Below the pieces are notes generated by a model. That model was not told where the DNA came from. It ran no database searches and was given only the letters and a program-made list of their open reading frames with translations. A program made the translations under genes and the position numbers. A stretch of DNA of 38,018 bases from an uncultured Eubacteriales bacterium (lineage in GTDB: Bacteria > Bacillota > Clostridia > Christensenellales > Aristaeellaceae), in contig CADCHI010000022.1 in NCBI GenBank assembly GCA_902801165.1, forward strand, positions 1-38,018. The letters are read 5' to 3'. Shown in pieces: positions 8,388 through 30,000 of this stretch. Positions within the stretch are counted from its first letter, which is position 1, and each line of letters starts with the position of its first letter.

Positions 8388-8424
8388 AAACGGGGCTGCG
8401 GCTTACTCGACCGCAGCCCCGTTT
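8388..8424 (-). terminator. Hairpin between TRAP binding-protein and permease genes
   Basis: AAACGGGGCTGCGG (8388-8401) pairs perfectly with CCGCAGCCCCGTTT (8411-8424), a 14-bp stem with a 9-base loop, 28 bases past the binding-protein stop on the minus strand. It lacks a long T run, so partial termination or 3'-end protection of the upstream message is likely. Either would give more binding protein than permease. Confidence 0.6.
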
Positions 8425-8452
8425 GATTCAGATTGCTTTGGGGCGGGGAGGC

Positions 8453-9397: not shown

Positions 9398-9445
9398 TGT
9401 GTTTTCCTCCATTTCGCAGCCGGACTTCCGGCCGGTAATGACTGT

Positions 9446-9474
9446 ATTATACAATAAAGCCATTGGAAACGCAA
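9446..9474 (-). promoter_or_regulatory. Promoter of the TRAP operon
   Basis: On the minus strand TTGCGT (9474-9469) and TATAAT (9451-9446) are separated by 17 bases, about 50 bases before the binding-protein start. The -10 is a perfect consensus. Confidence 0.7.
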
Positions 9475-9650
9475 CAGAAAACTGCCAACTCGAATGTTAA
9501 GAATTGCAATTTTATGCGAAAACCGGGGCGCACACACTGTTTTTGCATTTATTTGAAAAATGAAATGCTGAAAAAACCATGCTGTGGCTGCATATATATA
9601 CAAAGAAATATGTATAAAAACGCTTGCTTGCTAAGATGGCACACAGCCAT

Positions 9651-9761
9651 TAATTCTCAATTCCCAATTACCAATTCTCAATTCTCGATTTCCAAGGCTT
9701 GTTCCTTTCCCGGCATTCTGGCTGTTGCCTGTTGCCTCATGCCTGTTGCCTGTTGCCTGAT
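9651..9761. repeat. Low-complexity repeat blocks (AATTCTCAATT and TTGCCTGTTGCC types)
   Basis: The region 9475-9790 between the divergent TRAP and lepA units holds no convincing gene. It contains a block of AATTCTC/AATTCCC units (9651-9692), whose complement resembles 23376-23416. A second block of GCCTGTT units (9721-9761) is, inverted, the same motif as the 57-bp tandem array at 5967-6190. Confidence 0.75.
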
Positions 9762-9792
9762 TGCCGCTTGATTAATTAACACGAACAGGCTA

Positions 9793-9801
9793 TGATATAA
9801 T
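9793..9801 (+). promoter_or_regulatory. lepA: Extended -10 promoter of lepA
   Basis: TGATATAAT is an extended -10 (TGnTATAAT), 33 bases before the lepA start. A weak -35, TTAATT (9772-9777), lies 18 bases upstream. The same extended -10 occurs before the ECF S-component gene. Confidence 0.65.
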
Positions 9802-9834
9802 GTAGACATTTCACGCGACGGAGGCGTTTGCAAT

Positions 9835-11640
9835 TTGAAGTACGATCAGAGCCGAATCCGCAATTTCTGCATCATCGCCCACATCGACCACGGCAAGTCC
9901 ACGCTGGCGGACCGCATCCTCGAGAAGACGGGCGTGATGAAGCTGCGGGACATGACCGATCAGGTGCTGGACAGCATGGAGCTGGAGCGGGAGCGTGGCA
10001 TCACCATCAAGTCGAAGGCGGTGCGGATGCCCTACACCGCGAAGGACGGCACCGAGTATGTGCTGAACCTGATCGACACCCCCGGCCACGTGGACTTTAC
10101 CTACGAGGTGTCCCGGGCGCTGGCGGCCTGCGAAGGCGCGGTGCTGGTGGTGGACGCCAGCCAGGGCATCGAGGCCCAGACGCTGGCCAACGTGTACATG
10201 GCGCTGGAGCACGACCTGGAGATCCGCCCGGTGATCAACAAGATCGACCTGCCCTCGGCCCGGCCGGAGGTGGTCAAGGGCGAGATCGAGGACGAGATCG
10301 GCATCGACTGCGAGGGCTGCCCGCTGGTGTCGGCCAAGCAGGGCATCGGCATCGAGGACGTGCTGGAGGACATCGTGGCGAACGTGCCCGCCCCCCAGGA
10401 TGATGTGGACGCCCCGCTGCAGGCGCTGATCTTCGATTCCTACTACGACAATTACCGCGGGGCCATCTCCTCCGTGCGGCTCAAGGCCGGGCGGGTGAAG
10501 GTGGGGGACCGCATCCGCATGATGGCGGGCAAGTGCGAGTTCGACGTCACCGAGGTGGGCACCTACCTGCCCCTGGGCTACAGCCCCAAGGACGAGCTGT
10601 GCGCCGGCGAGGTGGGCTACATCGCCGCCTCCATCAAGGACATCGCGGACATCCACGTGGGCGACACCATCACCCTGGCGACCAATCCCGCCGCCGTGCC
10701 GCTGCCGGGCTACAAGCCGGTGCTGCCGATGGTGTACTGCGGCATCTATCCCGCCGACGGAGCGGACTATGAGAGCCTCAAGGACGCGCTGGAGAAGCTG
10801 CGCCTCAACGACGCGGCGCTGTCCTATGAGCCGGAGACCTCCGTGGCGCTGGGCTACGGCTTCCGGTGCGGTTTCCTGGGCCTTCTGCACATGGAGATCA
10901 TCCAGGAGCGCCTGGAGCGCGAGTTCGACCTGGACCTGGTAACCACCGCGCCCAGCGTGGTGTACAGGGTCGTCAAGACCGACGGCACGGAGCTGATGAT
11001 CGACAACCCCACCAACCTGCCGCCGGTGCAGGAGATCGACTGGATGGAGGAGCCCATGGTGGACGCCCAGGTGATCACGCCCCAGGACTACGTCGGCGCG
11101 ATCATGGAGCTGTGCCAGGACAAGCGCGGCACCTTCCGGGACATGAAGTACATCGAGGGCGGCCGCGTGCTGCTGAAGTACGACCTGCCCCTGAACGAGG
11201 TCATCTACGACTTCTTCGACCAGCTGAAGTCCCGCACCCGGGGCTACGCCTCCTTCGACTATGAACTCAAGGGCTACGAGCGCAGCGACCTGGTGAAGCT
11301 GGACATGCTCCTGAACGGCGAGCAGTGCGACGCGCTGTCCATCATCGTGCACCGCGACCGGGCCTATCCCCGAGGCCGCTCCATCGCCGAGAAGCTCAAG
11401 GACGCCATTCCGCGCCAGCTGTTCGAGATCCCGATCCAGGCCGCCATCGGTGGCAAGGTGATCGCCCGAGAGACCGTCAAGGCCCTGCGCAAGGACGTGC
11501 TGGCCAAGTGCTACGGCGGCGACATCTCCCGCAAGAAGAAGCTGCTGGAAAAGCAGAAGGAGGGCAAGAAGCGCATGCGCCAGGTGGGCAGCGTGGCCGT
11601 GCCGTCCGAGGCGTTCATGGCGGTACTCAAGATGGACTGA
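9835..11640 (+). CDS. lepA: Elongation factor 4 (LepA GTPase)
   Basis: The product has 601 residues, the standard LepA length. GTPase motifs are intact: AHIDHGKST (P-loop), DTPGHVDF and NKIDLP. The C-terminal unique domain is present, including [20 protein letters not shown]. LepA acts on the ribosome, where it back-translocates stalled complexes or aids 30S assembly and initiation. Translation probably starts at TTG 9835: no earlier ATG fits, GGAGG lies 10 bases upstream, and the sequence then runs straight into the conserved N-terminus. It lies upstream of hemW, a common neighbour in Firmicutes, although here about 900 bases of repeats and a YcxB-like gene intervene. Confidence 0.97.
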
Positions 11641-13745: not shown

Positions 13746-15383
13746 ATGAAGAGGATGATCGTGCGGCTGGTCGTCGCGCTGTGCCTGTGCGCCGCGTTTG
13801 CGGCGGGGTGCGCGCTGGCGGAGGAGGCCGCGGACATCACGTCGAAGTGCAAGTTCAAGGTGTCCGAGGGCGACCGGGGCAACCTGTACGACAAGAACAT
13901 CCGGTCCATGTGGAAATACAGCCGGGCCGACGCCTATGTGGGCATCCACCTGCCCAAGGACGCCCGGGCGGGATGGCTGCGCATCGAGTGGCTCTACGAC
14001 CCGAAGGGCTTCGAGCTGATCGAGTACGACGCCGACCTGAACGAGCTGCGCACCCGGGACCAGACCTGCACCTTCCCCAACATCTATACCATGCTGGAGC
14101 TGCTGCCGGAGACCTCCTATCTCCAGCTGAAGATGACGGCGAAGAACCAGCAGATCGGCAACCTGCGGGTGTACTCCGCGGGGGACCTGCCCAAGGAGGT
14201 CCAGGTGTGGGAGCGGCCCGTGGAGAAGGCCGACCTGATGGTGGTCTCCACCCACCAGGACGACGAGCTGATCTTCCTGGGCGGCACGATCCCCTACTAC
14301 GCCACGGCGCTGAAGAAGCCCACCATCGTAGTCTACATGACCAACTGCTCCCGCTATCGCCGCAACGAGGCGCTGAACGCGCTGTGGGTGATGGGCGTGA
14401 GGACCTATCCCGAGTTCATCAACTTCACCGACAAGAAGGTGGAGAGCATCAACAAGGGCATCGCCCTGTGGGGCGGCAAGGACAACATCCTGTCCGCGCT
14501 GGTGGAGCGCATCCGCCGCTACAAGCCGGAGGTCATCGTCACCCAGGACCTGAACGGCGAATACGGCCACATCCAGCACCAGATCACCGCCCGAGCCATG
14601 ATGTACGCCATCGAGGCGGCGGCGGACCCGACGCAGTATCCCGAGTCCCAGCAGAAGTACGGCGAGTGGCAGGTGAAGAAGCTCTACCACCACCTGTACA
14701 AGGAGAACCAAATCCAGATGGACTGGGAGACCAAGCTGGACAGCCTGAACGGCTACAGCCCGCTGAAGGTGGCCCAGATCGGCATGAACGAGCACGCCTC
14801 CCAGCTGAAATACTACGCGGTGAAGAGCCACGGCAAGTACGACAACTCCAAGTTCGGCCTGTACTTCACCACCGTGGGCGAGGACGTGGCCAAGAACGAC
14901 TTCCTGGAGAACATCGATCCCAACGCCTCCGCGGACTACCTGGCGGAGCACGGCGTGCGGGAGCTCGCGGAGCTCTGGGAGGATGTGCCCGAGGTTCCCG
15001 AGGACGAGGACGAGGACGCCGGCCAGGGCGACGCGCCGGAGGATGAGGAAGCGGCCGCGCCTGAGGAGGAAGAAGCGGACGTGTTCGCCGCCTCCGATGG
15101 CGGCGCCGAGCAGGACGTCGGGGGAGAGACGGGCGCGGAATCCGCCGAAGGGGAGCCCGCCGCACAGGAGCCCGTGGCGGAGGCCCCGGCGGAGGAACCC
15201 GCCCCGGCCATGGAGACGCCCCAGCCGGCGGTCACCGTCGCGCCACGTCCGGCCAACGAGTCCTCGGGCGGCAGCGCCGCGCTGGCGGTGGGCATGATCG
15301 TCGCGGGCGTGGCCGCGGTGGGCGCGGGCGGCTGGTACGCCTACAGGACGCTGGGCCATCGCCGCCGCCGTCGCCGCAGGTGA
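13746..15383 (+). CDS. Exported, membrane-anchored PIG-L (LmbE) family deacetylase
   Basis: The product has 545 residues. A signal peptide (about residues 1-24) may end at ALA or at a weak lipobox AAGC. After about 140 residues of beta-rich sequence comes the LmbE zinc motif H170-Q-D-D-E174 (STHQDDELIFLGG), with the second site H275 and H278 (GHIQH). Family enzymes remove acetyl groups from N-acetylglucosaminyl compounds. Residues about 413-505 are a low-complexity linker rich in Glu, Ala and Pro. The protein ends with a hydrophobic helix (AALAVGMIVAGVAAVGAGGW) and a seven-arginine tail, an arrangement that leaves the catalytic domain outside and the tail inside. GGAGG precedes ATG 13746. The substrate is unknown; a surface glycan is likely. 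Confidence 0.85.
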   Translation: MKRMIVRLVVALCLCAAFAAGCALAEEAADITSKCKFKVSEGDRGNLYDKNIRSMWKYSRADAYVGIHLPKDARAGWLRIEWLYDPKGFELIEYDADLNELRTRDQTCTFPNIYTMLELLPETSYLQLKMTAKNQQIGNLRVYSAGDLPKEVQVWERPVEKADLMVVSTHQDDELIFLGGTIPYYATALKKPTIVVYMTNCSRYRRNEALNALWVMGVRTYPEFINFTDKKVESINKGIALWGGKDNILSALVERIRRYKPEVIVTQDLNGEYGHIQHQITARAMMYAIEAAADPTQYPESQQKYGEWQVKKLYHHLYKENQIQMDWETKLDSLNGYSPLKVAQIGMNEHASQLKYYAVKSHGKYDNSKFGLYFTTVGEDVAKNDFLENIDPNASADYLAEHGVRELAELWEDVPEVPEDEDEDAGQGDAPEDEEAAAPEEEEADVFAASDGGAEQDVGGETGAESAEGEPAAQEPVAEAPAEEPAPAMETPQPAVTVAPRPANESSGGSAALAVGMIVAGVAAVGAGGWYAYRTLGHRRRRRRR

Positions 15384-15393
15384 CGGAGACATT

Positions 15394-15555
15394 GGAGTGT
15401 GATTCTAAAATGCCTGAAGCGCATTTTCGGCATCTGAGGCTGCATTTCTGCGTTGCTTTTCCTTGACTTGCAACCAGTAAGCCTTCGGAAAAGCGCCTTG
15501 AAACGCAACCTGATCTGCTCGACAATGCATCTACCGGCACTTTGAAGCACACTCC
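15394..15555. repeat. Dispersed MITE-like repeat, copy C (inverted, probably full length)
   Basis: The 76 bases 15394-15469 are the inverse of copy B. The element appears to extend to 15555, since GGAGTGTG (15394-15401) is perfectly inverted as CACACTCC (15548-15555). An inner GCTTTTCC/GGAAAAGC pair strengthens the fold. At 162 bases with terminal inverted repeats and no gene, it resembles a miniature inverted-repeat transposable element. Confidence 0.7.
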
Positions 15556-15569
15556 AAATTTTTACGCGG

Positions 15570-15618
15570 TTGTTGGAATGTCGCCATCATATTATAATAT
15601 ATAAAGTGTATTATAATA
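15570..15618 (+). promoter_or_regulatory. Promoter and tandem palindromes before the second CotH gene
   Basis: TTGTTG (15570-15575) and TATAAT (15593-15598) are 17 bases apart. The -10 lies within a perfect palindrome ATATTATAATAT (15589-15600), and a second palindrome TATTATAATA (15609-15618) is centred 19 bases downstream. The paired palindromes could be an operator; they could also simply reflect AT-rich promoter DNA. Confidence 0.55.
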
Positions 15619-15672
15619 TGGATAAGGTATTGGCACAACAGAACCCCGAAGAGCATGTACGGAGGCAGCCGA

Positions 15673-18600
15673 GTGGCAAAGCAATCCTCAAATAAGAATA
15701 AGAAGATCGTCTGGCGTCGGCCCAGGCCCCTGGGCCCGGCCCCCGCGCTCATCGCGCTGGTGGGCGCCGTCGCCATACTGGTCACCTATCTCGCGCAGAA
15801 CAGCCCCCTATCCGGCAGCGCCACCCGCGCCGCCGCCCAGGAGGCCTCCGGGCTGCGCATCAGCGAGGTCATGACCGCGAACGCCTCCACCCGCGTGGGC
15901 AACGCGGGGGGGATCGTGGACTGGATCGAGCTGCAGAACACCTCCTCGAAGCCGGTGGACCTGACGGGCTACGCCCTGATGCGGGAGACCAAGCCCGCCC
16001 AGGCCTTCGCCTTCCCCAGCGGCGTGCTCCAGCCCGGCGAGTACGTGGTGGTCTACGCCGACGGCAGCGGGCAGGAGATCCAGGAGGACGGCTATCACGC
16101 GTCCTTCGCACTGCCCGCCTCCGGCGAGAACCTGGCCCTGCTGGACAAGCGGGGCGACGGGGTGGACCTGGTGGAGATCCCGTCCCTGGCCAGGGACCAG
16201 GTCTACTGCCGGGATGCCACCGGCGCGTGGCAGATCAGCGACTATCCCACCCCGGGCCAGGCGAACCGCGTGGAGCGCTTCAGCGGCACTGAGGGCGAGG
16301 ATCGCCCCATCGTCCTGCAGCAGGGACCTGTGGAGATCAGCGAGGTGATGGCGGACAACGCCACCTTCTTCCCGGATGAGACCGGGGCCTGCCCGGACTA
16401 CGTGGAGATCCACAACACCTCCGCCTCCAGCGTGAACCTGGAGGGCTGGTACCTGTCCGACCGCTCGGACAAGCTGATGCGGTGGCGCTTCCCCTCGGTC
16501 ACGCTGCCCGCGGGCGGCTACCTGGCCGTGCACTGCTCCGGCAGGAGCGGCTCGGTGGAGGGCCACCTGCACGCCAATTTCAAGATTTCCAACAAGGGCG
16601 ACAACGTGTTCCTGACCGACCCGGACGGGGCCACGGTCAGCCACGTGAAGACCCCGGTGATGGAGCCGGACCAGGCCTATTCGCTGCTGGAGACCGGCTG
16701 GACCAAGCAGTTCTCGCCCTCCCCGAACTACCCCAACACTCCTGAGGGGGCGGATGCCGCCGCGAGCAGCATCGACAGCGCGAACACGAAGGGCGTCACC
16801 ATCACCGAGGTGCTGGCCTCCTCCTCCAAGTCCGACGACTGGATCGAGCTGTACAACAACTCCAGCGAGGCGGTGGACCTGTCCGGCTACGGCCTGTCCG
16901 ACAACGCAGACCGGCCCCGGAAGTGGCAGTTCCCCTCCGGCACGGTTATCCAGCCGGGCCAGTACCTGGGCGTGTTCGCCAACGGGCTGAACACCTCCGC
17001 GGCGGACCGCATCCAGACCAACTACAACCTGTCCGCCGACGGCGGCTATTCCGTGGTGCTCTCCGAGCCCAACGGGCACATCATCGACCGGCTGTTCGTG
17101 CCCATGCAGTATGAGGACATCTCCTTCGGCCGCATGGAGACCCAGAACGCGGTGCGCTACTTCACTACGGTGACGCCCGGCGCGCCCAACGACAGCTCCA
17201 GCTACTACGGCCGCGCGCCGAAGCCCATCTATTCGGTGATGGGCGGCCTGTACAAGACCGGCGACACGCTGTCTGTGGAGCTGTCCGTACCCTCCGGCTG
17301 CCGGGCCTACTACACGCTGGACTATACCGACCCCACCGAGAGCTCCACGCTCTATACCGGGCCGATCACCGTCACGGGGACGACGATCCTGCGCACGCGG
17401 GTCTACGGCGAGGGCTACCTGGAGTCCTTTATGGACACCCAGAGCTACCTGTACGACGTGAACAACGGGGGAGGGACCGTGTTCGTGGTCTCCCTGGTGA
17501 GCGATCCCTACAACCTCACCAGCGACGAGGCGGGCATCATGGTCAAGGGCCCCAACGCCCTGCCGAACTACCCCTACGGCTCCATGAACAAGGGTGCCAA
17601 CTTCTGGATGGATTGGGAGCGCGAGGCCCACGTCGAGGTGTTCAACCCCGACGGCAGCACGATGATCTCTCAGGAGTGCGGCATCAAGCTGCACGGCCAG
17701 TACAGCCGCGCCGAGAAGCAGAAGGCCTTCAAGGTGATCGCCCGCAGCAAGTACGGCGCGAACCGCTTCCAGGCGGCCATCTTCTCCCACCGGCCCTATA
17801 CGGACTACCAGTCCTTCCTGCTGCGCTCGTCCAGCGAGGACGGCTACAAGACCCGCTTCCGCGACGCGCTGCTGCAGCGGCTGGCGGAGGGCGGCGACGT
17901 GGACTACCAGGAGACCGAGATCGGCGTGCTGTACATCGACGGCCAGTACTGGGGCCACTACAACCTGCGCGAGCGCATCAACACCGCCAACATCTGCCAG
18001 TTCGAGGGCTGGGAGGGCGACGAGGACGACCTGGACCTGATCAAGGCCAACACCAACGTGATGCAGGGCTCCAACGACACCATGGTCCAGCTGCTGGATT
18101 GGGTCAAGAGCCACGACATGAAGACCGAAGAGGCCTGGAATGTCATCGACAGCGCCATCGACGTGCAGAACTACATCGAATACATGGCGGTGGAGATGTA
18201 CACAGGCAACACGGACACGCTGAACGTGAAGCGCTACCGGAACCCCAAGACGGACGGCAAGTGGCGCTGGGTGCTGTTCGACCTGGACTGGGCCTTCTAC
18301 ACCGACACCAATTCCCCCAAGCGCTGGCTGACGCCGGGCGGCATGGGCAACAAGAACCGCACCGACAACACGCTGTTCATCGCCTGCATGAAGAACCCGA
18401 CCTTCTGCGATCGGTTCCTCACCTTCCTGGGCGAGAAGATGGCGACCACCTACAGCGCCGACAACATCACGAAGATGGCCGAGGAGTTCTACAACGCCAT
18501 CGAGCCGCTGATGCCGGACCACTACGCGCGGTGGGACTTCACCGAATCCGAGCACAAGTCGGAGGTGCGCAGGTTTATCCGCTACGCGCAGTCGCGCCCG

Positions 18601-18729
18601 GGACGCATGCTGCAGTTCATCAAGTACAACGACTATCTGCCGCTGAGCAAGGCGCAGATGGAGCAGTATTTCGGCACGGTGATGACGCAGCTGGGCGTGA
18701 GCTACGAGGACATCAAGAAGCCGACGTGA
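15673..18729 (+). CDS. Membrane-anchored lamin-tail-domain / CotH kinase family protein (second copy)
   Basis: The product has 1018 residues. The start chosen is GTG 15673, 7 bases after GGAGG (15661-15665); the ATG at 15655 lies upstream of that site. A basic N-terminus precedes one membrane segment (about residues 25-42). Three LTD domains follow (about 55-175, 215-345, 370-490), each with a D(W/Y)(I/V)E(L/I) signature, then a chitobiase C-terminal-type domain (YYTLDYTDPTESSTLYTG). The CotH domain at about 600-1000 has D848 in GNTDTLN and D870/D872 in FDLDWAF, matching the metal-binding acids of CotH kinases. Domain order is the same as at 538-3432. It is first in a run of same-strand genes with a VTC polymerase and DUF4956 protein. 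CotH is a known protein kinase; activity here is inferred. Confidence 0.88.
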   Translation: MAKQSSNKNKKIVWRRPRPLGPAPALIALVGAVAILVTYLAQNSPLSGSATRAAAQEASGLRISEVMTANASTRVGNAGGIVDWIELQNTSSKPVDLTGYALMRETKPAQAFAFPSGVLQPGEYVVVYADGSGQEIQEDGYHASFALPASGENLALLDKRGDGVDLVEIPSLARDQVYCRDATGAWQISDYPTPGQANRVERFSGTEGEDRPIVLQQGPVEISEVMADNATFFPDETGACPDYVEIHNTSASSVNLEGWYLSDRSDKLMRWRFPSVTLPAGGYLAVHCSGRSGSVEGHLHANFKISNKGDNVFLTDPDGATVSHVKTPVMEPDQAYSLLETGWTKQFSPSPNYPNTPEGADAAASSIDSANTKGVTITEVLASSSKSDDWIELYNNSSEAVDLSGYGLSDNADRPRKWQFPSGTVIQPGQYLGVFANGLNTSAADRIQTNYNLSADGGYSVVLSEPNGHIIDRLFVPMQYEDISFGRMETQNAVRYFTTVTPGAPNDSSSYYGRAPKPIYSVMGGLYKTGDTLSVELSVPSGCRAYYTLDYTDPTESSTLYTGPITVTGTTILRTRVYGEGYLESFMDTQSYLYDVNNGGGTVFVVSLVSDPYNLTSDEAGIMVKGPNALPNYPYGSMNKGANFWMDWEREAHVEVFNPDGSTMISQECGIKLHGQYSRAEKQKAFKVIARSKYGANRFQAAIFSHRPYTDYQSFLLRSSSEDGYKTRFRDALLQRLAEGGDVDYQETEIGVLYIDGQYWGHYNLRERINTANICQFEGWEGDEDDLDLIKANTNVMQGSNDTMVQLLDWVKSHDMKTEEAWNVIDSAIDVQNYIEYMAVEMYTGNTDTLNVKRYRNPKTDGKWRWVLFDLDWAFYTDTNSPKRWLTPGGMGNKNRTDNTLFIACMKNPTFCDRFLTFLGEKMATTYSADNITKMAEEFYNAIEPLMPDHYARWDFTESEHKSEVRRFIRYAQSRPGRMLQFIKYNDYLPLSKAQMEQYFGTVMTQLGVSYEDIKKPT

Positions 18730-18742
18730 TCCCGCTTCGCCG

Positions 18743-18760
18743 CCCGGGCTTCGGCCCGGG
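18743..18760 (+). terminator. UUCG hairpin between CotH and VTC genes
   Basis: CCCGGGC-TTCG-GCCCGGG has no T tail. It is more likely a message-stabilising or processing hairpin inside the operon than a full terminator. Confidence 0.5.
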
Positions 18761-18797
18761 ACGGCACGGACATCGGCAATTATGGAGAGGGTTGAGT

Positions 18798-19505
18798 ATG
18801 CAGCAGAAGAGAAACGGCCTGCCCGCCCGGCATGAATTGAAGTACTTCATCAATCCGGCGGAGCTGGAGGCCCTGCGGGCGCGGCTTCGCGGCGCGCTGA
18901 CCCTGGACAGCCACTGCGTGGGCGGCAAGCCCTACGTCATACGGTCGCTGTACTTTGACGACATAGAGGATTCCGCCTTCTACGACAAGCAGTCGGGCGT
19001 GATGCACCGCGACAAGTACCGCATCCGCATCTATCGCTACTCGGACAAGGAGATCTTCCTGGAGCGCAAGCGCAAGCTCGGCGACTTGATCCAGAAGTCC
19101 TCCGTGCAGATCACCCGGCGGCTGTGCGACCAGCTGATCGAGGGCAACCCGGCGGGGTTGCACAAGTCCTCCAACGCGCTGCTGCAGGACGTGTACGTGC
19201 AGATGCGCACGCGGCTGCTGCGGCCCAGGGTGATCGTGGACTACGCCCGGGAGGCCTACCTGCACCCGGCGGAGGACGTGCGGATCACCTTCGACCTGAG
19301 CCTGCGCTCCGGGCTGTTCAGCCGGGACCTGTTCAACCCGAACCTGCCCACCGTCTGCCCCCACGACCGCAACGTGGAGATCCTGGAGGTCAAGTTCAAC
19401 AACTACCTGCCGGACTACATCGCCGCCCTGCTTAGCGGCACCGAGGCGGAGCGCAGCGCCGTGTCCAAGTACATACTCTGCCGGCGCTACGAGCCCCTGG
19501 CATAA
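18798..19505 (+). CDS. VTC-domain polyphosphate polymerase family protein
   Basis: The product has 235 residues, a complete bacterial VTC domain with no SPX domain. Tunnel residues expected in the family are visible: RHELKY (R11, E13, K15), IRSLYFDD, KYRIRIYR (K73 to R80), ERKRK (89-93), RPRVIVDY, the acidic-basic pair E197/K199 in LEVKFNNYLPDYI, and SKYILC at the end. In yeast, Vtc4 makes polyphosphate from ATP and passes it across the vacuole membrane. The bacterial protein has no membrane segment, so it would act at the inner face with a partner, most likely the DUF4956 protein encoded next. GGAGAG lies upstream of the ATG. It shares the triphosphate-tunnel fold with the CYTH protein at 5431. 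Confidence 0.88.
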   Translation: MQQKRNGLPARHELKYFINPAELEALRARLRGALTLDSHCVGGKPYVIRSLYFDDIEDSAFYDKQSGVMHRDKYRIRIYRYSDKEIFLERKRKLGDLIQKSSVQITRRLCDQLIEGNPAGLHKSSNALLQDVYVQMRTRLLRPRVIVDYAREAYLHPAEDVRITFDLSLRSGLFSRDLFNPNLPTVCPHDRNVEILEVKFNNYLPDYIAALLSGTEAERSAVSKYILCRRYEPLA

Positions 19506-19521
19506 GCGCACATCGTGACCT

Positions 19522-19550
19522 TTGGATAGAGACTATCCCTGATATACATT
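19522..19550 (+). promoter_or_regulatory. Possible internal promoter/palindrome before DUF4956 gene
   Basis: TTGGAT (19522-19527) and TACATT (19545-19550) are 17 bases apart, and GGATAG/CTATCC (19524-19538) is a small palindrome. It is weak and read by eye. Confidence 0.25.
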
Positions 19551-19575
19551 CAGATCAACAGGAGGAAGAAAGCCC

Positions 19576-20235
19576 ATGAACAGCATCTTTGCCAATCTCT
19601 TCAGCTCCCAAACCATCACCCCCGCGTCCTTTCCCACGATCCTGCTCTCCCTGGTGCTCGCGCTGGCGGCGGGCCTGTTCATCGCGTGGATCTACCGGCG
19701 CAACTATCGCGGCGTGATGTACTCCAACAACTTCACGCTGACCCTGGTGATGATGACGCTGATCACCTGCCCGGTGGTCATGTGCATTCGCGAGTCCATC
19801 CAGCTCTCCATGGGCATGGTCGGCGCGCTGTCCATCGTCCGCTTCCGCACCGCTGTCAAGGACCCGCTGGACACCGCCTACATGTTCTGGGCGCTGACCA
19901 TGGGCATCCTGCTGGGTGCGGGCCAGTTCTTCCTGACCGCCTGCGCGGTGGTGGGCATCGGCCTGCTGCTGACCCTGCTGGTGCACATCCAGTCCAAGGG
20001 CATCAACAGCTATCTGCTGGTCATCCGCATGGGCGAGGAGGCCGAGCGCCAGGCCAACCAGCTGGTCAACGGCCTGAAGGTGCAGCAGCTGAAGAGCAAG
20101 ACCGTCACCGGCAACGGCATTGAAGCCACCTATGAGGTGCGCGTGGAGAAGCCCGACGCCCTGCTGAACAAGCTGCGCGGCGTGCCCGGCGTCTACGACG
20201 CGACCCTGGTCTCCTATCAGGGCGAGGCCGTCTGA
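19576..20235 (+). CDS. DUF4956 membrane protein
   Basis: The product has 219 residues. About four hydrophobic segments lie at 20-40, 50-70, 78-90 and 105-138. The conserved-looking stretch ESIQLSMGMVGALSIVRFRTAVKDPLDTAYMFWA is characteristic of DUF4956 proteins. The soluble C-terminus (about 150-219) has a ferredoxin-like pattern ending GVPGVYDATLVSYQGE. Its function is unknown. DUF4956 genes are repeatedly found beside VTC-domain genes, which suggests a membrane partner or polyphosphate channel analogous to the membrane part of yeast VTC. It lies 70 bases after the VTC gene with AGGAGG 8 bases before the ATG, and 37 bases before the LTD protein gene. Confidence 0.85.
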   Translation: MNSIFANLFSSQTITPASFPTILLSLVLALAAGLFIAWIYRRNYRGVMYSNNFTLTLVMMTLITCPVVMCIRESIQLSMGMVGALSIVRFRTAVKDPLDTAYMFWALTMGILLGAGQFFLTACAVVGIGLLLTLLVHIQSKGINSYLLVIRMGEEAERQANQLVNGLKVQQLKSKTVTGNGIEATYEVRVEKPDALLNKLRGVPGVYDATLVSYQGEAV

Positions 20236-20272
20236 TCCAACCGGCGACATCTGATAATTGGGAGTGATCCTC

Positions 20273-21541
20273 TTGACCGATAACAACAGGCCGGTGCGCC
20301 CGCAGTCGAGCGGGCAGCCCAGCCGGTTCGGAGACCTGAACGACAGCCGCCCGGCGCAGCGCGGCGCGGCGCCCGCGGGGAACAGGGCCTATGCCAGCCA
20401 GCGCCCCGCGGCAAGCCCGCGTCCCGCGCAGAGGCCGGCGGCCCAGGCTCCGCGTCCGGCGGCGAATCCGCGCCCGAAGGCCGCGCCCCAGGGCGTCAGC
20501 GGCGGCAGGCTGCCCCGGGGCTTTGTGCCCCTGCTGGGCGTGTGCGTGGCGATCATCGCGCTGGGACTGGTGCTCCAGGGCCTGATGCCCGGCGGCTTCA
20601 GCCTCGGCGGGACCCAGGACAAGGCTGAGCGGCCCGTGGCCGCCCAGGTTTCCGAGATCCACGGCGAGGGCCCGGTGCGCCTCAACGAGATCATGAGCGC
20701 CAACGGCGGCGTGCTGGTGGATGCCAACGGCGCCACGCCCGACTGGATCGAGGTGGCCAACATCGGCAACCGTCCCGTCAACCTCCAGGGCTACATACTG
20801 GCCAAGAGCGCCAAGGCGGGCAACGTGTTCGTGTTCCCGGACGTGATTCTCCAGGCCGGCGAGTGCGCCATCGTCTACGCCGACAGCACCCTCCAGGCGG
20901 AGCTTGGGGAGGAGCTGCACGCGCCCTTCCGCCTGTCCTCCGGCGGCGACGTGTTGATGCTGTTCAATACGGCGGACGTGGCCGTGGACACGGTGAACAT
21001 CCCCGCGCTGGCGGAGAACGAAGCCTACGTGCGCCGGGACCGCAACAGCTGGGCCAAGGACACGCGGACCACGCCGGGCCTTCTGAACACCGATGAGAAC
21101 TACCAGGCCATGACCAGTGTGGTGCAGTCCGCCAACGTGCAGCTGGGCGAGATCGTGGCCTCCAACACCCAGTACGGGCTGGACGAGAACGGCGTGGCCC
21201 AGGACTACGTGCTGCTGCGCAACACCTCCGGCGCCGACGTGGACATCAGCGGCTGGTATCTGTCGGACAACCCGCAGCTGCCTCGCCTGTGGAAGTTCCC
21301 CAGCGGCGTGGTGGTGCCCGCGGGCGGCACCCTGCTGGTGCACTGCTCCGGCATGAACCGCCTGGACAACCCGGCCCACCTGCACACCGGCTTCCGGCTG
21401 AGCAGCGAGGGCGAGACCATTACGCTGAGCAACGCCAATGGCCAGCCGGTGGACACCGCGACCTACGACCTGCTGAGGACCGACACCGCCTACATTCGCG
21501 GCTCGGACGGCAGCTGGAGCGTCGGAACGCCCACCGCCTGA
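20273..21541 (+). CDS. Membrane-anchored protein with two lamin-tail domains
   Basis: The product has 422 residues. I chose TTG 20273 with GGGAG 8 bases upstream; an in-frame TTG at 20258 would begin within that site. An N-terminal tail rich in Pro, Arg and Ala (about 85 residues) is followed by one membrane segment (FVPLLGVCVAIIALGLVLQG). Two extracytoplasmic LTD domains follow, at about 135-255 and 285-420, with LNEIMSANGG, PDWIEVAN and ISGWYLSDN signatures. The CotH and chitobiase-type modules of the two larger LTD proteins are absent. The long basic cytoplasmic tail could contact polyphosphate or the neighbouring VTC protein; that is speculation. LTD domains in bacteria are thought to mediate surface or membrane association. 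Confidence 0.8.
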   Translation: MTDNNRPVRPQSSGQPSRFGDLNDSRPAQRGAAPAGNRAYASQRPAASPRPAQRPAAQAPRPAANPRPKAAPQGVSGGRLPRGFVPLLGVCVAIIALGLVLQGLMPGGFSLGGTQDKAERPVAAQVSEIHGEGPVRLNEIMSANGGVLVDANGATPDWIEVANIGNRPVNLQGYILAKSAKAGNVFVFPDVILQAGECAIVYADSTLQAELGEELHAPFRLSSGGDVLMLFNTADVAVDTVNIPALAENEAYVRRDRNSWAKDTRTTPGLLNTDENYQAMTSVVQSANVQLGEIVASNTQYGLDENGVAQDYVLLRNTSGADVDISGWYLSDNPQLPRLWKFPSGVVVPAGGTLLVHCSGMNRLDNPAHLHTGFRLSSEGETITLSNANGQPVDTATYDLLRTDTAYIRGSDGSWSVGTPTA

Positions 21542-21550
21542 CGGATGATG

Positions 21551-21600
21551 AAGGGGCTGCCCCCAAATGACCAATCGCGGTCACGAAGGGGCGGCCCCTT
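21551..21600 (+). terminator. Terminator-like hairpin between LTD and SH3-like genes
   Basis: AAGGGGCTGCCCC (21551-21563) pairs with GGGGCGGCCCCTT (21588-21600), with an inner TGACC/GGTCA stem, followed by TTGGGTT. The spacer to 21711 contains no gene and looks like a decayed dispersed repeat. Confidence 0.5.
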
Positions 21601-21711
21601 TGGGTTATCAAAAAAACCAAAGATTTTCTCCAAAGCTGCAACCCACGGCGGGACTGCGCCGTCCAAGAAATGGAAAGAGGGGGCGAAGCTCCCGCGCGAG
21701 GAGGAATCGGC

Positions 21712-22788
21712 ATGAAGAGGAAGATGTTGACCTGGGTGTGCGCGCTGCTGCTGGCGCTGTCCGCCGTCGGCGCGATGGCGGGCGTGAGCGCCTCGCCCAA
21801 GCAGGACCTGGCCCTCAGGACGGGGCCGAACACCCGCTATGTGTGGCTGGACATGATGCCCCAGTCCACCCGGATCATCGCCTATGAGTACGAGGAGGGC
21901 AACGATGTCACCTGGGTGCTGGTGGAGTATGAGAGCGGCGGCAAGCTCTACCGCGGCTACACCGGCCTCAAGCGCATGACGGTGAACGGCAACATTCCCT
22001 GGGCGGACCACCTGTGGCAGAGCGCGTCTTTGACGGAGGACTGCCCGGTGTACGCCGCGCCTTCGGAGCGGGGCGCGTGGAGGGCCAAGCTGTCCGAGGA
22101 CGACGCGGTGACGCTGCTGGGCTACGAGAACGGCTACGCCTACATCGAGTTCTACGATCAGGCCAACGGCGCGGACAGCCGGGGCTACATATACGATTGG
22201 GAGCTGGACGACGGCCTTTACGGCGAGAGCGGCATGCTGGGCGGCTTCGGCGGGGAGTACGACGACGATGACGGCGGGCAGAACGGTGAGAGCGGCATGC
22301 TCGGCGGTGGCGTCGGCTTCTGGCTGGACGACGGCGCGGGGCACGACGCCATCGAGGGCGTCCCGGCCACGCCGAACCAGCGGCTGGCGCTGCGGGGCTG
22401 CCCGGACCGGCACAGCGTGTGGCTGGGCCACATGCCCCAGTCGACCCAGATCACCGCGCTGGAGTATGAAAAGGGCAACGGCGTCACCTGGGTGCTGATC
22501 GAGTACTGGAAGGACGGCAAGCTGTGCCGGGGCTACACCGGCCTGAAGCGCATGACGGTGCATGGCGACATTCCCTGGGCGGACCACCTGGGGACCCGCG
22601 TCCGGGCGAACTGGTCCGGCACCATCTACGCCGCGCCGGACTGGGCCGCTGCCGAGCGGGATTGGCTGAACGCCGGCGAGTCCGTCACGCTGCTGGAGTA
22701 CGACGGGGAGTTCGCGTTCGTCGAGTTCTACGATGACAGCGAGCAGTTCAACAGTCGGGGCTACGTGCCTGCGGACATGATCGACTGA
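21712..22788 (+). CDS. Secreted protein with tandem SH3-like repeats
   Basis: The product has 358 residues. A signal peptide (about 1-24, cleavage after AMA) leads to two homologous halves. Each starts LALR(T)G(P)...VWL(D/G)(M/H)MPQSTxI and continues TWVLxEY, LxRGYTGLKRMTV(N/H)G and IPWADHL. Each then has a second unit ending (Y)AYIEFYD or FAFVEFYD with SRGY. These are bacterial SH3-like (SH3b) folds, often used to bind peptidoglycan or peptides. A Gly/Asp linker (about 160-215) separates the halves, with GESGMLGG repeated. AGGAGG lies 8 bases before ATG 21712. It is last in the CotH/VTC run and lacks any catalytic domain. Confidence 0.75.
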   Translation: MKRKMLTWVCALLLALSAVGAMAGVSASPKQDLALRTGPNTRYVWLDMMPQSTRIIAYEYEEGNDVTWVLVEYESGGKLYRGYTGLKRMTVNGNIPWADHLWQSASLTEDCPVYAAPSERGAWRAKLSEDDAVTLLGYENGYAYIEFYDQANGADSRGYIYDWELDDGLYGESGMLGGFGGEYDDDDGGQNGESGMLGGGVGFWLDDGAGHDAIEGVPATPNQRLALRGCPDRHSVWLGHMPQSTQITALEYEKGNGVTWVLIEYWKDGKLCRGYTGLKRMTVHGDIPWADHLGTRVRANWSGTIYAAPDWAAAERDWLNAGESVTLLEYDGEFAFVEFYDDSEQFNSRGYVPADMID

Positions 22789-24300: not shown

Positions 24301-26733
24301 TTACGCCAGCACGGCCTCGACCTCGTGGGTCGCGGGGGCCGCGTCGGCGGGAATGACGCCGCCATCCACGGGCTTGCCGTCCACGGTCAGGGTCAGCTTG
24401 CCCTTCTCGTCGCCGGCTTTGTTGACGATGTGGATGTTGTAGGTGCTGCCGCGGAACTTGCGCACCAAATGCAGGTCCGTCAGCTCCTTGGGCAGGCACG
24501 GGTCGATTCTCAGGCCGTCATAGTCCGGCTTGACGCCCAGTATGCCCTGGCTGATGGTGTAGAAGCTCCAGGCCGCGGTGCCGGTCAGCCAGCTGTTCTT
24601 GGCCTGGCCGAAGTGGGGCGCGTAGGGGCCGGCCACCATCTGGCTGTACACATAGGGCTCGGTGAAGTGCAGCTCCTGGTCCTCAATCCAGGCGGGGCAG
24701 GTGCGACGGTAGATGTCGAAGGCCGCGCCGCCGTGGCCCAGGCGCGCCTGCGCCAGCGCGATCCACGGGTTGTTGTGGCAGAAGATGCCGCCGTTCTCCT
24801 TGTATCCCGGCGGATAGGAGCTGATCTCGCCCAGCTCCAGGTGGTAGCGGGTGTAGGGCGGGGTGAGGATGGCCACGCCGTGCTCGCTGAGCAGGTGCTT
24901 GTTGACAGAATCGAGCGCCTTCTGGGCGTAGCCCTCCTTCACGCCGACGCCGCCCATGACGATGAAGCCCTGGGGCTCGATGTAGATCTTGCCCTCCTCG
25001 CACTCATGGCTGCCCACCTTGTCGCCGTGGGCGTCGTAGGCGCGCAGGAACCACTCGCCGTCCCAGCCGTGGGTCAGGATGGCCTTCTCCATCTCGTCGT
25101 GCCAGCCGGGAACCTGCTCGGCCTCCTCCGTCCAGCCGTACAGGCGGCACAGGACCTCGTAGTCCGGGCAGACGCCGGTGAACATGCCGGCGATGAAGGT
25201 GGACTCCGCCGCGCCGGACTCGTTGTTCTCGGTGGTCTGGAAGCTCTCGCCGGGGGTGCTGGAGAAGCAGTTCAGGTTCAGGCAGTCGTTCCAGTCGGCG
25301 CGGCCGATCAGCGGCAGGCCGTGGGGGCCGCGGTGCTCCAGCGTGTAGTGGAAGCTGCGGCGCAGGTGCTCCATCAGCGGCTGGGCCTGCTTCTCGTCGT
25401 TGTCGAAGGGCACCATTTCCTTCAGGATGGAGGTGTCGCCGGTCTCCTTGATGTAGGCGGCCACGCCGAAGATCAGCCACAGCGGGTCGTCGTTGAAGCC
25501 GGAGCCGATGTCGTTGTTGCCCCGCTTGGTCAGCGGCTGGTACTGGTGGTAGGCGCTGCCGTCCGGGAACTGGGTGGCGGCGATGTCCAGGATGCGCTCG
25601 CGGGCGCGGGCGGGGATCAGGTGCACGAAGCCCAGCAGGTCCTGGGTGGAGTCGCGGAAGCCCATGCCGCGGCCGATGCCGGACTCATAGTAGCTGGCGG
25701 AGCGGCTCATGTTGAAGGTGACCATGCACTGGTACTGGTTCCACAGGCCGGCCATGCGATCCACGCGGGCGTCGCCGCTGTCCACCTGGAAGGAAGAGAG
25801 CAGCTCGGCCCAGTAGGCGTTCAGCTCCGCGAAGGCGGCGTCGAACTGGGCGTCGGTCTTGAACCGGTCCAGCACGGCGTAGGCGGGGGCCTTGTTGATC
25901 ACGCCGGGGGCGATGAACTTCTGGTCCTCGGGGTTCTCGCAGTAGGCCAGCACGAAGATCAGGCTGACGGTCTCGCCGGCCTTCAGACTGCGCTTGATCC
26001 AGTGGCTGGCGATGGGGGAGAAGCCGCTGGCGACGCTGTTGTTGCTCTTGTTGGCCAGGGGCACCTGGGGCTCGCCGAAGCCGTTGTAGTAGCCGATGAA
26101 GGAGGCGCGGTCGGTGTCGAAGCCGTCGATGTCGGCGTTCACGGCGTACACCGCGAAGTGGTTGCGGCGCTCGCGGTACTCGGTCTTGTGGTAGATGGCG
26201 CTGCCCTCAATCTCCACCTCGCCGGTGGAGAAGTTGCGCTGGAAGTTGGTGGAGTCGTCCTGAGCATTCCACAGGCAGAATTCCACGTAGCTGAACAGGG
26301 AGATGTCCTTCGCGGCGTCGGATTCGTTGGTCAGGCGCACGCGGGTCACCAGGGCGTTCACGCCCCGGGGCACGAAGGAGAGCTGCTCGGCCTTCAGGCC
26401 GTCCTTCACGCCGGTGATGCGGGTGTAGCCCAGGCCGTGGCGGCACTCATAGCTGTCCAGCTTCGCCTTCACGGGCATCCAGCCGGGGGTCCAGACGCTG
26501 CCGTTGTCGTTGATGTAGAAGTACTGTCCGCCGGCGTCGGTGGGCACGTTGTTGTAGCGGTAGCGGGTGAGGCGCAGCATGCGGGCGTCCTTGTAGAAGC
26601 TGTAGCCGCCGCTGGTGTTGCTCATCAGGGTGAAAAAGGCCTCGCTACCCAGGTAGTTGATCCAGGGCGAGGGGGTGTCGGGCCGGGTGATGACGTACTC
26701 GCGGGCGAGATCGTCGAAGTGTCCGTATTCCAT
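24301..26733 (-). CDS. Cellobiose phosphorylase (GH94)
   Basis: The product has 810 residues, close to the known clostridial cellobiose phosphorylases, and matches them along its whole length (FDDLAREYVITRPDTPSPWI, NFQRNFSTGEVEIEGS, SRSASYYESGIGRGMGFRDS, GRADWNDCLNLNCFS, SWLTGTAAW). The enzyme splits cellobiose with phosphate into glucose-1-phosphate and glucose in the cytoplasm, saving ATP. D483 in RADWNDC is the general-acid position of the family. No signal peptide is present, as expected. GGAGGAGG lies before the ATG. It stands alone on the minus strand, behind a LacI-type operator, so it is likely induced by a disaccharide. No cellobiose transporter or LacI gene is in the window. Confidence 0.95.
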   Translation of the reverse strand: MEYGHFDDLAREYVITRPDTPSPWINYLGSEAFFTLMSNTSGGYSFYKDARMLRLTRYRYNNVPTDAGGQYFYINDNGSVWTPGWMPVKAKLDSYECRHGLGYTRITGVKDGLKAEQLSFVPRGVNALVTRVRLTNESDAAKDISLFSYVEFCLWNAQDDSTNFQRNFSTGEVEIEGSAIYHKTEYRERRNHFAVYAVNADIDGFDTDRASFIGYYNGFGEPQVPLANKSNNSVASGFSPIASHWIKRSLKAGETVSLIFVLAYCENPEDQKFIAPGVINKAPAYAVLDRFKTDAQFDAAFAELNAYWAELLSSFQVDSGDARVDRMAGLWNQYQCMVTFNMSRSASYYESGIGRGMGFRDSTQDLLGFVHLIPARARERILDIAATQFPDGSAYHQYQPLTKRGNNDIGSGFNDDPLWLIFGVAAYIKETGDTSILKEMVPFDNDEKQAQPLMEHLRRSFHYTLEHRGPHGLPLIGRADWNDCLNLNCFSSTPGESFQTTENNESGAAESTFIAGMFTGVCPDYEVLCRLYGWTEEAEQVPGWHDEMEKAILTHGWDGEWFLRAYDAHGDKVGSHECEEGKIYIEPQGFIVMGGVGVKEGYAQKALDSVNKHLLSEHGVAILTPPYTRYHLELGEISSYPPGYKENGGIFCHNNPWIALAQARLGHGGAAFDIYRRTCPAWIEDQELHFTEPYVYSQMVAGPYAPHFGQAKNSWLTGTAAWSFYTISQGILGVKPDYDGLRIDPCLPKELTDLHLVRKFRGSTYNIHIVNKAGDEKGKLTLTVDGKPVDGGVIPADAAPATHEVEAVLA

Positions 26734-26839: not shown

Positions 26840-27070
26840 GGGGTCAGGGCCCTGTTTTTGGATGTTTGTGAAAGTTTTATGCAACCTTTCAGGGCTGAGA
26901 GCGGTCAAACAGTGGCGGGCGCGGGTCAAAAGGAAGCACTTTTCCATAAACCAGGCCATCAAAGCAGGATTTTACCCACAAACCGCGAATATTATATAGG
27001 TTAACGAAGTGTCATCACGCGCTTGTCGCGAGGAACGCCGCAAGGCAGGAGGCTTATACAGGAGGCTAAT

Positions 27071-30000
27071 ATGAACAGAAAACACCGCATCCCGTGGATT
27101 GGACTGGCGCTGGCGATGTGCGCGGCGCTGCTGGTGACCGCGCTGCCGGCCCTTGCCGAGGGCGGCCAGAAGGTGCTGGTCTGCGGCAAGGAGGAGCACA
27201 CCCACACCGAGGCCTGCTATACCAAGACGCTGACCTGCGGCCAGGAAGCGGTCGAGGCTCACCACCACACCGAGGCCTGCTACACCAAAACGCTGATCTG
27301 CAACCAGGAGGCGGTGGAGGCCCATCACCACACCGATGCTTGCCGCGAAAAGGTTTTAAGCTGTGGCAAGACGGAGAGCCCCGGGCACCAGCACACCGAG
27401 GCCTGCTATTCCCGGCAGCTGACCTGCAACAAGAATGAGGGCGATGGGGGCCACGTCCATACCGATGCCTGCTATACTCTGACGGACAACTACATCTGTG
27501 GGCAGGCGGAGAGTGACGAGCATCACCACACCGACGCCTGCCGCGAGAAGGTCTTGAGCTGCGGCAAGGCTGAGGGCGAAGGAGGCCACGTCCACACCGA
27601 TGCCTGCTATGGGGACGTGCTGAGCTGCGGCATGGCCGAGGGCGAGGGAGGCCACACCCACACCGACGCCTGCTACACCCTGACGGACAACATCGTCTGC
27701 GGCAAGGAGGAGACGGAGGGCCACGCCCACACCGACGCCTGCTATGAGGACGTGCTGAGCTGCGGCAAGGCGGAGACGGAGGGTCATACCCACACCGACG
27801 CCTGCTACGCGGTCGAGCTCACCTGCACCAAGGAGGAGCACACCCACACCGAGGCCTGCTACAAGACCCTGTACACCATCACCTTCGACACCGACGGTGG
27901 CAGCGCCGTCGCCGCCATCTCCGCGGAGGCGGGCGCGGCGGTCACCGCCCCGGCGAACCCCACAAAGGCGAACTGCGCCTTCAAGGGCTGGAGCCCGGAG
28001 CTGCCCAAGACCATGCCTGCCGGCGACCTGACGGTGAAGGCCCAGTGGGTGAACCTGTACACGATCACCTGGAAGAACGAGGACGGCACCGTCATCGACA
28101 CCACCGCCGTGGAGCAAGGCGCGACGCCCGTCCACGACGCCCCGGTGAAGGAAGCGACGCCCGACATGGAGTATGCCTTCGCGGGTTGGACGCCCGCCAT
28201 CGTGCCGGCGACGGCCAACGCCGAGTATACCGCCGTGTTCACCGGCACGGTGCGCCAGTACACCAGCGGCGACTATACCTACACCCTGAACGCCGCCGGC
28301 GAGGCCACCATCATCGCCTGGAAGGGCTCCGACGCGGAGCTGATCGTGCCCCAGCTGCTGGACAACCACGCGGTGGTGGGCATCGGCCCCGGGGCCTTCG
28401 CCAACAAGGGCAAGCTGACCCGGCTGGACCTGCCCGCCGGCCTGAGGACCATCGCCGACAACGCCTTCTCGGGCTGCCCGGCTTTGGAGACGCTGCTGGT
28501 GCCCGACTCTGTGGAGGCCATCGGCCTGGACACCCTGAAGGACGACGCGGGGCTGAAGAACTTCGTGCTGAAGGCCGGGCTGGACCGCAGCCTGGTGGCG
28601 GCGGACTCCGTGCAGCGCTTGGTGGCGATCGACGGCGTGACCACCCCGGTGTCGGTGCGCTTCCCGATGCCCTTCACGGACATCGAGGTCAACGCGCTGA
28701 ACCTGGCCTTCACCGTGGACTGTGACTTCACCGTGGCGGCGGAGCACCACCTGACCGTGGCCCAGGGCTCCACCCTCAACGTAGCGGGCCAGCGGACGCT
28801 GGTCAACCTGGGGGCCATCACCAACAGCGGCGCGCTGAACGTCGCCGGCACCCTGATCAACTGCGCGGGCACCTACGGCGGCAACGCGCCTCAGGGCAAT
28901 TACGTCACCGAACACAGCTTCCAGGACGGCGTTTGCACCGTCTGCGGCTTCGAGGACGGCGACTATGTGATCGAGCTGGGAGTTGAGTATACAGGTGGAA
29001 CGAGAAGCAAGGTATACGACAAGACGAGGAATGTAAAAAGCCCAACAGACGGATCGTGGTTGCTGGATAAGCCTATAAGGATTAAGGATTTCAACCTTAT
29101 CGGAGTAAAGGCCGGCGATTCAGTGGAAATTGGGAAATTAAACATTTCCAATTTCGAAAAGATGAATGTAGGGAACTACAATTTGAAGGTTTCTTTTACG
29201 CTTAAGGGCGACGACGCGAAGCACTACAAGGCGAAGGACCTGACCCTCTCCGCGAGGATCACCCCGAAGCCGCTGATCATCACCCCCACCGTGGGCCAGA
29301 AGAAGACCTATGGCTCCGCAGACCCGGCCTACATCACCGGCAAGGTGCGCGGCCTGCTCTCCGGCGACAAGATGACCGGCCGCCTGAGCCGCGAGACCGG
29401 CGAGAACGCCGGCCAATACCGCATCCTGGCGGGCACCATCAGCGCGGGCGACAACTATGAGATCGAGGTGTTGAAGGAATCCTTCACCATCGAGCGCAAG
29501 TCCATCAACAGCACGGACGTGGGCCTGGTGACCATCGGCAACCAGCGCTACACCGGGCAGGAGGTGACGCCCGACGTCACGCTGCGCTTCGGCAGCAACA
29601 CGCTGGTGGAGAACACCGACTATAAGGTGGCCTTCGAGAACAACATCCAGCCGGGCACCGCCACGGTGAAGCTGACCGGCATCGGCAACTACACCGGCAG
29701 CCGCGAATCGGCGTTCAGGATCCTGAACATCTCCTCCGGCGTCAACTTCAACAGCGACAGCGAGTCCGCCAACTACGGCTATTACGGCTTCGAGGACGGC
29801 GAGTACGAGGAGATGGAGGACTTCGACGGCGAGGGCGACGACGAGGACGACGAGGAGCCCGGCGAGACCGGCATGCTGTTCCTGGAGGGCAACGACTACG
29901 GCCTGGTGCTGTTCAACACCCTGGGCGAACCCTGGAACTTCTCCCAGTTCGAGGAGGAGGTCGCGGACGGCAGCAAGGTGCTGACGATCATCGCCGACCC

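Follow-up and report, generated by a model that had tools for sequence, protein, structure and literature searches.

A conserved CotH-VTC-DUF4956 gene cassette, mostly independent of Pel genes, in an uncultured Eubacteriales bacterium and its relatives

The window analyzed in this study is a stretch of 38,018 nucleotides from an uncultured Eubacteriales bacterium (Bacillota; Clostridia; Christensenellales; Aristaeellaceae; assembly GCA_902801165.1, contig CADCHI010000022.1), and its positions 13746-22788 carry a row of six genes on the forward strand. The second to fourth of these encode a CotH kinase-like protein, a VTC-domain protein predicted to be a polyphosphate polymerase, and a DUF4956 membrane protein. 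We find that these three genes form a real and well-conserved cassette. It is one variant of a gene group known from earlier work, and in the genomes sampled here it mostly occurs independently of the Pel exopolysaccharide genes; this independence is new with respect to published descriptions. As the best reading of its function, to which we assign a probability of roughly 40%, VTC and DUF4956 would make, and perhaps export, polyphosphate for an exchangeable surface partner.

A previous reading of this DNA from its letters alone (the sequence-only reading) had called six same-strand genes and their families, and Pfam bears this out with matches above the family cut-off for all six:

13746..15383, + strand: PIG-L-type deacetylase (PF02585, 2.1e-16) with an N-terminal signal-like segment and a C-terminal hydrophobic anchor; satellite
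15673..18729, + strand: LTD x3-CHB_HEX_C-CotH kinase-like protein (Pfam, CotH 1.1e-36); core
18798..19505, + strand: VTC-domain protein of 235 amino acids that lacks a membrane segment, predicted polyphosphate polymerase (Pfam 2.1e-39); core
19576..20235, + strand: DUF4956 membrane protein with an MgtC-like membrane part and a C-terminal ACT-like domain (Pfam 2.5e-11); core
20258..21541, + strand: LTD x2 protein with a single membrane segment as anchor (Pfam LTD 3.4e-30); satellite in close relatives
21712..22788, + strand: SH3_3-type exported protein (Pfam 7.6e-10 on a longer frame); outside the conserved cassette

Conservation of the neighbourhood was assessed in 121 genomes of the order, whose fragmented assemblies make all linkage counts lower bounds, in 149 genomes of the phylum, and in 80 named loci. 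The named loci are the top 80 among 588 confirmed relatives, lean to close kin, and include many short contigs (gene order listed for 78 of them). Profile searches of the order sample found VTC at 80 places in 49 genomes, DUF4956 at 79 places in 50 genomes, and CotH at 124 places in 64 genomes. DUF4956 lay within 1.5 kb of 75 of the 80 VTC places and CotH within 6 kb of 47, far above the 0.27 and 1.14 places expected under uniform placement, and none of the listed neighbours was on the opposite strand. The commonest orders were CotH-VTC-DUF4956 (33 places), VTC-DUF4956 (25), and VTC-DUF4956-CotH (11), while the five VTC places with neither neighbour include two that lie less than 170 bases from a contig end (G006:C165 and G051:C397). 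VTC was present in 20 genomes of the phylum sample, at 25 places of which 16 had CotH within 6 kb (of the core families, VTC and CotH were searched there), and among the named loci profile searches found a VTC frame in 80/80, a DUF4956 frame in 79/80, and a CotH-domain frame in 67/80. When the genomes of Corynebacterium glutamicum and Methanosarcina acetivorans were searched as controls, all three families were matched there too, a statement on family presence only; tractable hosts therefore exist.

The sequence-only reading had joined all six genes into one surface module, of which the CotH-VTC-DUF4956 part stands and the remainder falls away. By tblastn, PIG-L was found in only five of the named loci, directly 5' of CotH in L031 and L035 and 3' of VTC in L054, L064, and L082 (the latter three verified by Pfam), and SH3 in a single one (L031). 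An LTD-only gene follows 3' of DUF4956 in seven (L031-L035, L066, and L078), and profile search found no CotH domain in these LTD-only followers. We thus ruled out a six-gene module, and because PIG-L, LTD-only, and SH3 genes are rare among the named loci, the conserved core is, as far as gene neighbourhoods tell, CotH-VTC-DUF4956 with the other three as satellites.

Some loci showed different company. In six of them (L057, L063, L069, L075, L083, and L088), DUF4956-VTC adjoins a methyltransferase gene without any CotH-domain frame, and five of these six also have a MATE gene beside the pair (both families verified by Pfam on L083 only). As a side observation, DUF4956-VTC is followed in L044, L046, L048, and L055 by a protein with weak zinc-ribbon matches below cut-off and by a TPM_phosphatase-domain protein, with families looked up on L046 and extended to the other three by clustering. 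Locus L008 carries a decayed VTC copy with two in-frame stops.

The same gene families have been described beside pelDEADAFG in streptococci and clostridia, as cotH, polyphosphate polymerase, DUF4956, and DUF4832 genes, with a variant in bifidobacteria (PMC7112168, published in 2020), and in the literature searched the gene set appears either as such a Pel accessory or in a strain-associated cluster of Clostridium perfringens. Our samples present another picture. In the order sample, PelG exceeded the cut-off in two of the 121 genomes and was weakly matched in four others. It was absent by this measure from 47 of the 49 VTC genomes, counting weak matches below cut-off in G015, G017, and G086 as absent; in G004, pieces of PelG occur on two contigs, neither of them the VTC contig. 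None of the 80 VTC places in the order had PelG within 15 kb on the same contig, and the window's genome (88.6% complete) gave no PelG match, so that its cassette is not contiguous with pelDEADAFG. In the phylum sample, PelG was over cut-off in 4/149 genomes, within 15 kb of one of the 25 VTC places, and anywhere in 2 of the 14 genomes with a CotH-linked VTC. Among the named loci, eight contain pelD, E, ADA, F, and G. This mostly Pel-independent occurrence conflicts, at any rate outside the genomes which that work covered, with the statement of a 2025 study that its analyses did not recover synteny of the three genes away from the Pel locus (PMC12345266). Deletions in Streptococcus intermedius, as described in the same study, showed that none of the accessory genes is needed for Pel, and aggregation of the DUF4956 and CotH mutants fell to less than half in one medium (PMC12345266).

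The Pel loci themselves hold a peculiar arrangement: in four Paenibacillus loci (L097, L102, L104, and L106; near 6877-9989), a single frame of 1035-1036 amino acids directly 5' of VTC-DUF4956 runs from PelG into CotH, with a hydrophobic, lipobox-like stretch at the junction. The CotH domain was found by profile in all four frames, Pfam verified both PelG and CotH in L104, and the four may stem from one event; PelG and CotH are separate frames in the remaining four Pel loci. Such an arrangement would fit a CotH protein that acts next to an exporter.

The VTC protein is most likely a cytosolic triphosphate-tunnel enzyme that polymerizes phosphate from ATP. Its domain (PF09359) scores 135.9 bits against a cut-off of 23, and an alignment of 29 sequences, in which the window protein shares 21-53% identity with the rest, has 23 invariant columns, including K15, K73, R75, R77, E89, K91, K100, R151, R162, E197, K199, S223, and K224. 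Yeast Vtc4 is the best solved-structure match of the VTC profile (4.2e-20) and, as 3g3r_B, the top Foldseek match of the structure model (predicted local distance difference test [pLDDT] 92.6; 1.6e-14, template modelling score 0.72 by query length), which also matches the triphosphate tunnel enzymes 5a60 and 7ns9, though less well. K15, R75, R77, K91, K100, R151, and R162 fall in the Vtc4-aligned part (profile positions 2-168), and residues of the Vtc4 tunnel type are thus invariant. In the profile alignment, R75 and R77 fall on the RLR motif of Vtc4. The exchanges R264A/R266A/E426N impair catalysis of the yeast enzyme (PMC9911596), and we infer that R75/R77 of the window protein would be equivalent to R264/R266 and E197 to E426. 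No hydrophobic segment was found in any of 78 VTC frames of the named loci, by a hydropathy count that, here and below, is a simple window average and not a trained predictor. Fusions of VTC to DUF4956 were not noticed from open-frame lengths, though no systematic search for them was made.

By profile comparison, DUF4956 is a distant relative of MgtC and not a member of Pfam family PF02308, which gave 15.5 bits on the DUF4956 protein, under its cut-off of 31.4. Hhalign of the DUF4956 profile with MgtC yielded a probability of 97.5 and an E-value of 7.4e-12 over 190 columns that include the membrane and ACT-like parts (control alignment of MgtC with VTC: probability 0.1). The structure model (pLDDT 84.7) has five long helices at 16-140 and a C-terminal domain of beta-alpha-beta-beta-alpha-beta topology, for which Foldseek ranked an ACT domain first and the C-terminal domain of MgtC (2lqj) second with an E-value of 4.7e-3. 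The protein also has a conserved stretch with R89, R91, and K95. At least three hydrophobic segments were counted in 78 of the 79 DUF4956 frames from the named loci, and the DUF4956 protein of S. intermedius, SIR_1592, has already been described as MgtC plus ACT (PMC12345266).

The CotH domain (PF08757) of the LTD-CotH protein scores 127.4 bits against a cut-off of 23.8. As a single sequence it found no match among solved structures by phmmer, whereas a profile of 22 sequences matched spore coat protein H 5jd9 (2.3e-19), a CotH kinase from Bacillus. Seven CotH residues are invariant across these 22 sequences, among them the acidic E129, D192, D210, and D232 (A3 numbering). An N-terminal hydrophobic segment is present in the window protein (23-41) and in 47 of 50 frames of at least 850 amino acids from the LTD/CotH cluster of the named loci, so that, on the same simple hydropathy count, the sidedness proposed in the sequence-only reading (VTC in the cytoplasm, DUF4956 in the membrane, and CotH outside) holds across relatives. 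CotH is also frequent elsewhere, given that 73 of its 124 matches in the order are not within 6 kb of a VTC place. Some CotH matches (G017, G049, and G090 in the order; G181, G226, G233, G260, and G262 in the phylum sample) are split in two near profile position 110-138, as if by an insertion in the kinase fold. The window itself holds a second LTD x3-CHB_HEX_C-CotH gene at 538-3432, followed by genes for a LysR regulator (3599-4519) and a SurE phosphatase (4536-5297). SurE has been reported to cut polyphosphate.

VTC-DUF4956 is not tied to CotH everywhere. In the order, a member of the carbohydrate-binding protein family Cthe_2159 (PF14262) stands no more than 6 kb from VTC at 11 of the 33 CotH-less places versus one of the 47 CotH-linked ones, and its domain beside VTC-DUF4956 was verified by Pfam in L113, L115, L116, L118, and L122. 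A tree of 29 VTC sequences separates 15 members, 13 of them linked to CotH, from 13 others, none with CotH and six with Cthe_2159 (both groups 100/98), and the CotH label needs three changes on this tree versus a shuffled mean of 9.9, with none of 500 shuffles as low. As judged from these neighbourhoods, the VTC-DUF4956 pair takes exchangeable surface partners, CotH or Cthe_2159. Sister VTC-DUF4956 pairs adjoining a Cthe_2159 protein were seen in L113-L118, L121, and L122. A response regulator and a histidine kinase stand beside VTC in L118 (Pfam), and gene pairs of similar size in L113, L114, L117, and L121.

A general supply of polyphosphate is not the point of the cassette. PPK1 (PF02503) occurs in 23 of the 49 VTC genomes versus 12 of the 72 genomes without VTC (Fisher p 4.6e-4, without correction for kinship), and the idea that VTC substitutes for PPK1 was ruled out because VTC genomes carry PPK1 more often (a comparison of PPK1 alone).

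In the reading that we prefer, VTC would polymerize phosphate from ATP in the cytosol. Its partner in the membrane would be DUF4956, which probably draws the chain from the enzyme up to the membrane or across it, as the transmembrane subunits of yeast VTC do. CotH, anchored outside with its LTD and Fn3-like modules, would act as the output at the surface, modifying or organizing envelope material as an atypical protein of the kinase fold, and in the sister VTC clade this output would often be Cthe_2159, making the pair a two-gene engine with exchangeable partners. We infer the polymerase and its membrane coupling from homology, residue conservation, and the near-constant pairing of VTC with DUF4956, while export is suggested by the tie of the pair to exported partners of two families and by the analogy to yeast VTC; that CotH would depend on or use the product is speculation. 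A more ambitious version, in which VTC and the MgtC-like DUF4956 are a bacterial two-part counterpart of the VTC complex that threads polyphosphate out to CotH or Cthe_2159, appears doubtful to us; in this version the polymer outside would act as a polyanionic structural component or supply phosphate to a kinase that lacks ATP.

Several results weigh against polyphosphate production and export for a surface partner. In S. intermedius, the DUF4956 mutant made more Pel and the CotH mutant less, with no change reported for the polymerase mutant (PMC12345266), and because of these effects the cassette proteins need not act in one line; the linked polyphosphate function proposed by the sequence-only reading retains its conserved neighbourhood, but the knockouts do not resemble a linear path from polymerase over exporter to kinase. 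MgtC proteins are known as regulators and not as channels (in part PMC12345266). Foldseek of the DUF4956 model gave nothing with an E-value below 0.001, and among the matches listed nothing in the membrane part, so that the MgtC homology rests on hhalign. E197, S223, and K224 of VTC are invariant but lie C-terminal of the Vtc4-aligned part. No CotH-domain frame was found in 13 of the 80 named loci, some of them short contigs, and 22 of the 33 CotH-less VTC places of the order have neither CotH nor Cthe_2159 within 6 kb. Since the Cthe_2159 label alone is unclustered on the VTC tree (six changes, with 500/500 shuffles as low), Cthe_2159 is a frequent but not a clade-defining partner. Finally, VTC is not needed for bulk polyphosphate in the window's genome, because this genome has PPK1.

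Some of these points would be natural if DUF4956 were a regulator of the MgtC type, sensing or changing the status of ATP or phosphate, with VTC as its effector, so that the pair tunes a surface polymer or protein, CotH acts separately outside on a substrate of its own, and nothing is exported. We consider this somewhat unlikely. It agrees with the homology to MgtC over both membrane and ACT parts and with the two-component genes in L118 and the similar-sized pairs in four other loci, and the opposite Pel changes of the S. intermedius knockouts fit it at least as well (PMC12345266), but it leaves unexplained the tie to exported proteins of two unrelated families and the invariant polymerase-type residues of VTC. 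That VTC is instead a tunnel-fold triphosphatase or a maker of short chains, in a cassette that recycles triphosphates from phosphorylation close to the membrane, is improbable: the matches to 5a60 and 7ns9 would suit such an enzyme, but the polymerase Vtc4 is closest by both sequence and structure, and VTC frames without a membrane segment point to an enzyme that is probably cytosolic.

In the bold form of the sequence-only reading, exported polyphosphate would provide CotH with the phosphate or energy to phosphorylate proteins or glycans at a surface short of ATP. This draws on the predicted outside location of CotH, its strong linkage to VTC-DUF4956, and the four Paenibacillus frames that join the PelG exporter to CotH. 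Known CotH enzymes use ATP, however, CotH often manages without VTC as seen from its many matches at other places, and the alternative partner Cthe_2159 belongs to no kinase family, all of which makes this donor role quite improbable. Least probable of all is that the cassette is only an accessory of Pel exopolysaccharide and the window a relic of a Pel locus. The published streptococcal, clostridial, and bifidobacterial cases (PMC7112168, PMC12345266) and our eight Pel loci speak for such a link, but PelG is missing over cut-off from nearly all VTC genomes of the order and is near just one VTC place across both samples. A Pel relic in the window was ruled out by the lack of PelG in its genome and within 15 kb of any VTC place of the order.

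Within the window, the PIG-L gene starts 48 bases 3' of HemW, the gaps between CotH, VTC, DUF4956, and LTD genes are 68, 70, and 22 bases, and another 170 bases lead to the SH3 start at 21712, a spacing which suggests that the six genes split into two or three transcription units; a promoter and terminator scan gave a site count not above that of shuffled sequence. The VTC start at 18798 is preceded by GGAGAGGG, an alternative start at 15655 is possible for the LTD-CotH gene, and the longest frame of the SH3 gene starts at 21670. The domain model that Pfam places with CotH beside the three LTD copies of the LTD-CotH gene is named CHB_HEX_C_1, and hydrophobic segments were located at 4-22 and 511-529 of the PIG-L protein and at 88-106 of the LTD-only protein. 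The window's genome (3,547,365 bases in 98 contigs) has one match each for VTC, DUF4956, and PPK1 and three for CotH. The nearest named locus, L031, comes from a Clostridia metagenome-assembled genome with a VTC 99% identical to the window's, and other named kin include Christensenella and Candidatus Faecaligallichristensenella. Further along, the window holds a GH94-family gene at 24301-26733 on the minus strand and, at 27023-30790 on the plus strand, encodes a large protein matched by MBG_2, Flg_new, and LRR_5.

With the cassette mostly independent of Pel, its function need no longer be tied to that polysaccharide and can be approached in simpler models, while the exchange of CotH and Cthe_2159 provides a comparative handle on this function. 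If VTC-DUF4956 does export polyphosphate, this would explain how a cytosolic polymerase can serve surface proteins and would add a dedicated bacterial polyphosphate exporter as well as a transport-coupled role for the widespread MgtC fold. Polyphosphate export remains a viable hypothesis, and one that now lends itself to tests in settings without Pel.

Compared with known systems, the window cassette shares three contiguous families with the Gram-positive Pel accessory genes cotH-PPP-DUF4956-DUF4832 as described (PMC7112168, PMC12345266), but it comes without Pel genes, its CotH carries three LTD copies, and an LTD-only gene lies 3' of DUF4956. The NELoc-2 locus of C. perfringens, with the gene row VTC-"tubulin"-resolvase-VTC-"tubulin"-CotH, likewise clusters VTC and CotH with a small membrane-located protein, and its "tubulin" is probably DUF4956 given its size of 222-226 amino acids and its place; unlike the cassette, the VTC pair is duplicated there and is part of a strain-associated locus for which the relevant passages propose no joint function (PMC2879425). 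Cassette CotH resembles spore coat protein H 5jd9 by profile match and has invariant acidic residues in the cassette set, but is membrane-anchored, carries LTD and Fn3-like modules, and has no spore-coat setting. DUF4956 can be aligned with the MgtC family over membrane and ACT-like parts and differs by its own conserved motif, GALSIVRFRTAVKDPxD, and its genetic tie to VTC. With the eukaryotic VTC complex (Vtc4 with Vtc1 and Vtc3), finally, the cassette has in common the tunnel polymerase fold with conserved basic tunnel residues and the pairing of a polymerase with a membrane partner, but the cassette proteins are encoded by separate genes and lack an SPX domain, and the membrane partner is MgtC-like where the eukaryotic complex has the VTC transmembrane domain (PMC9911596).

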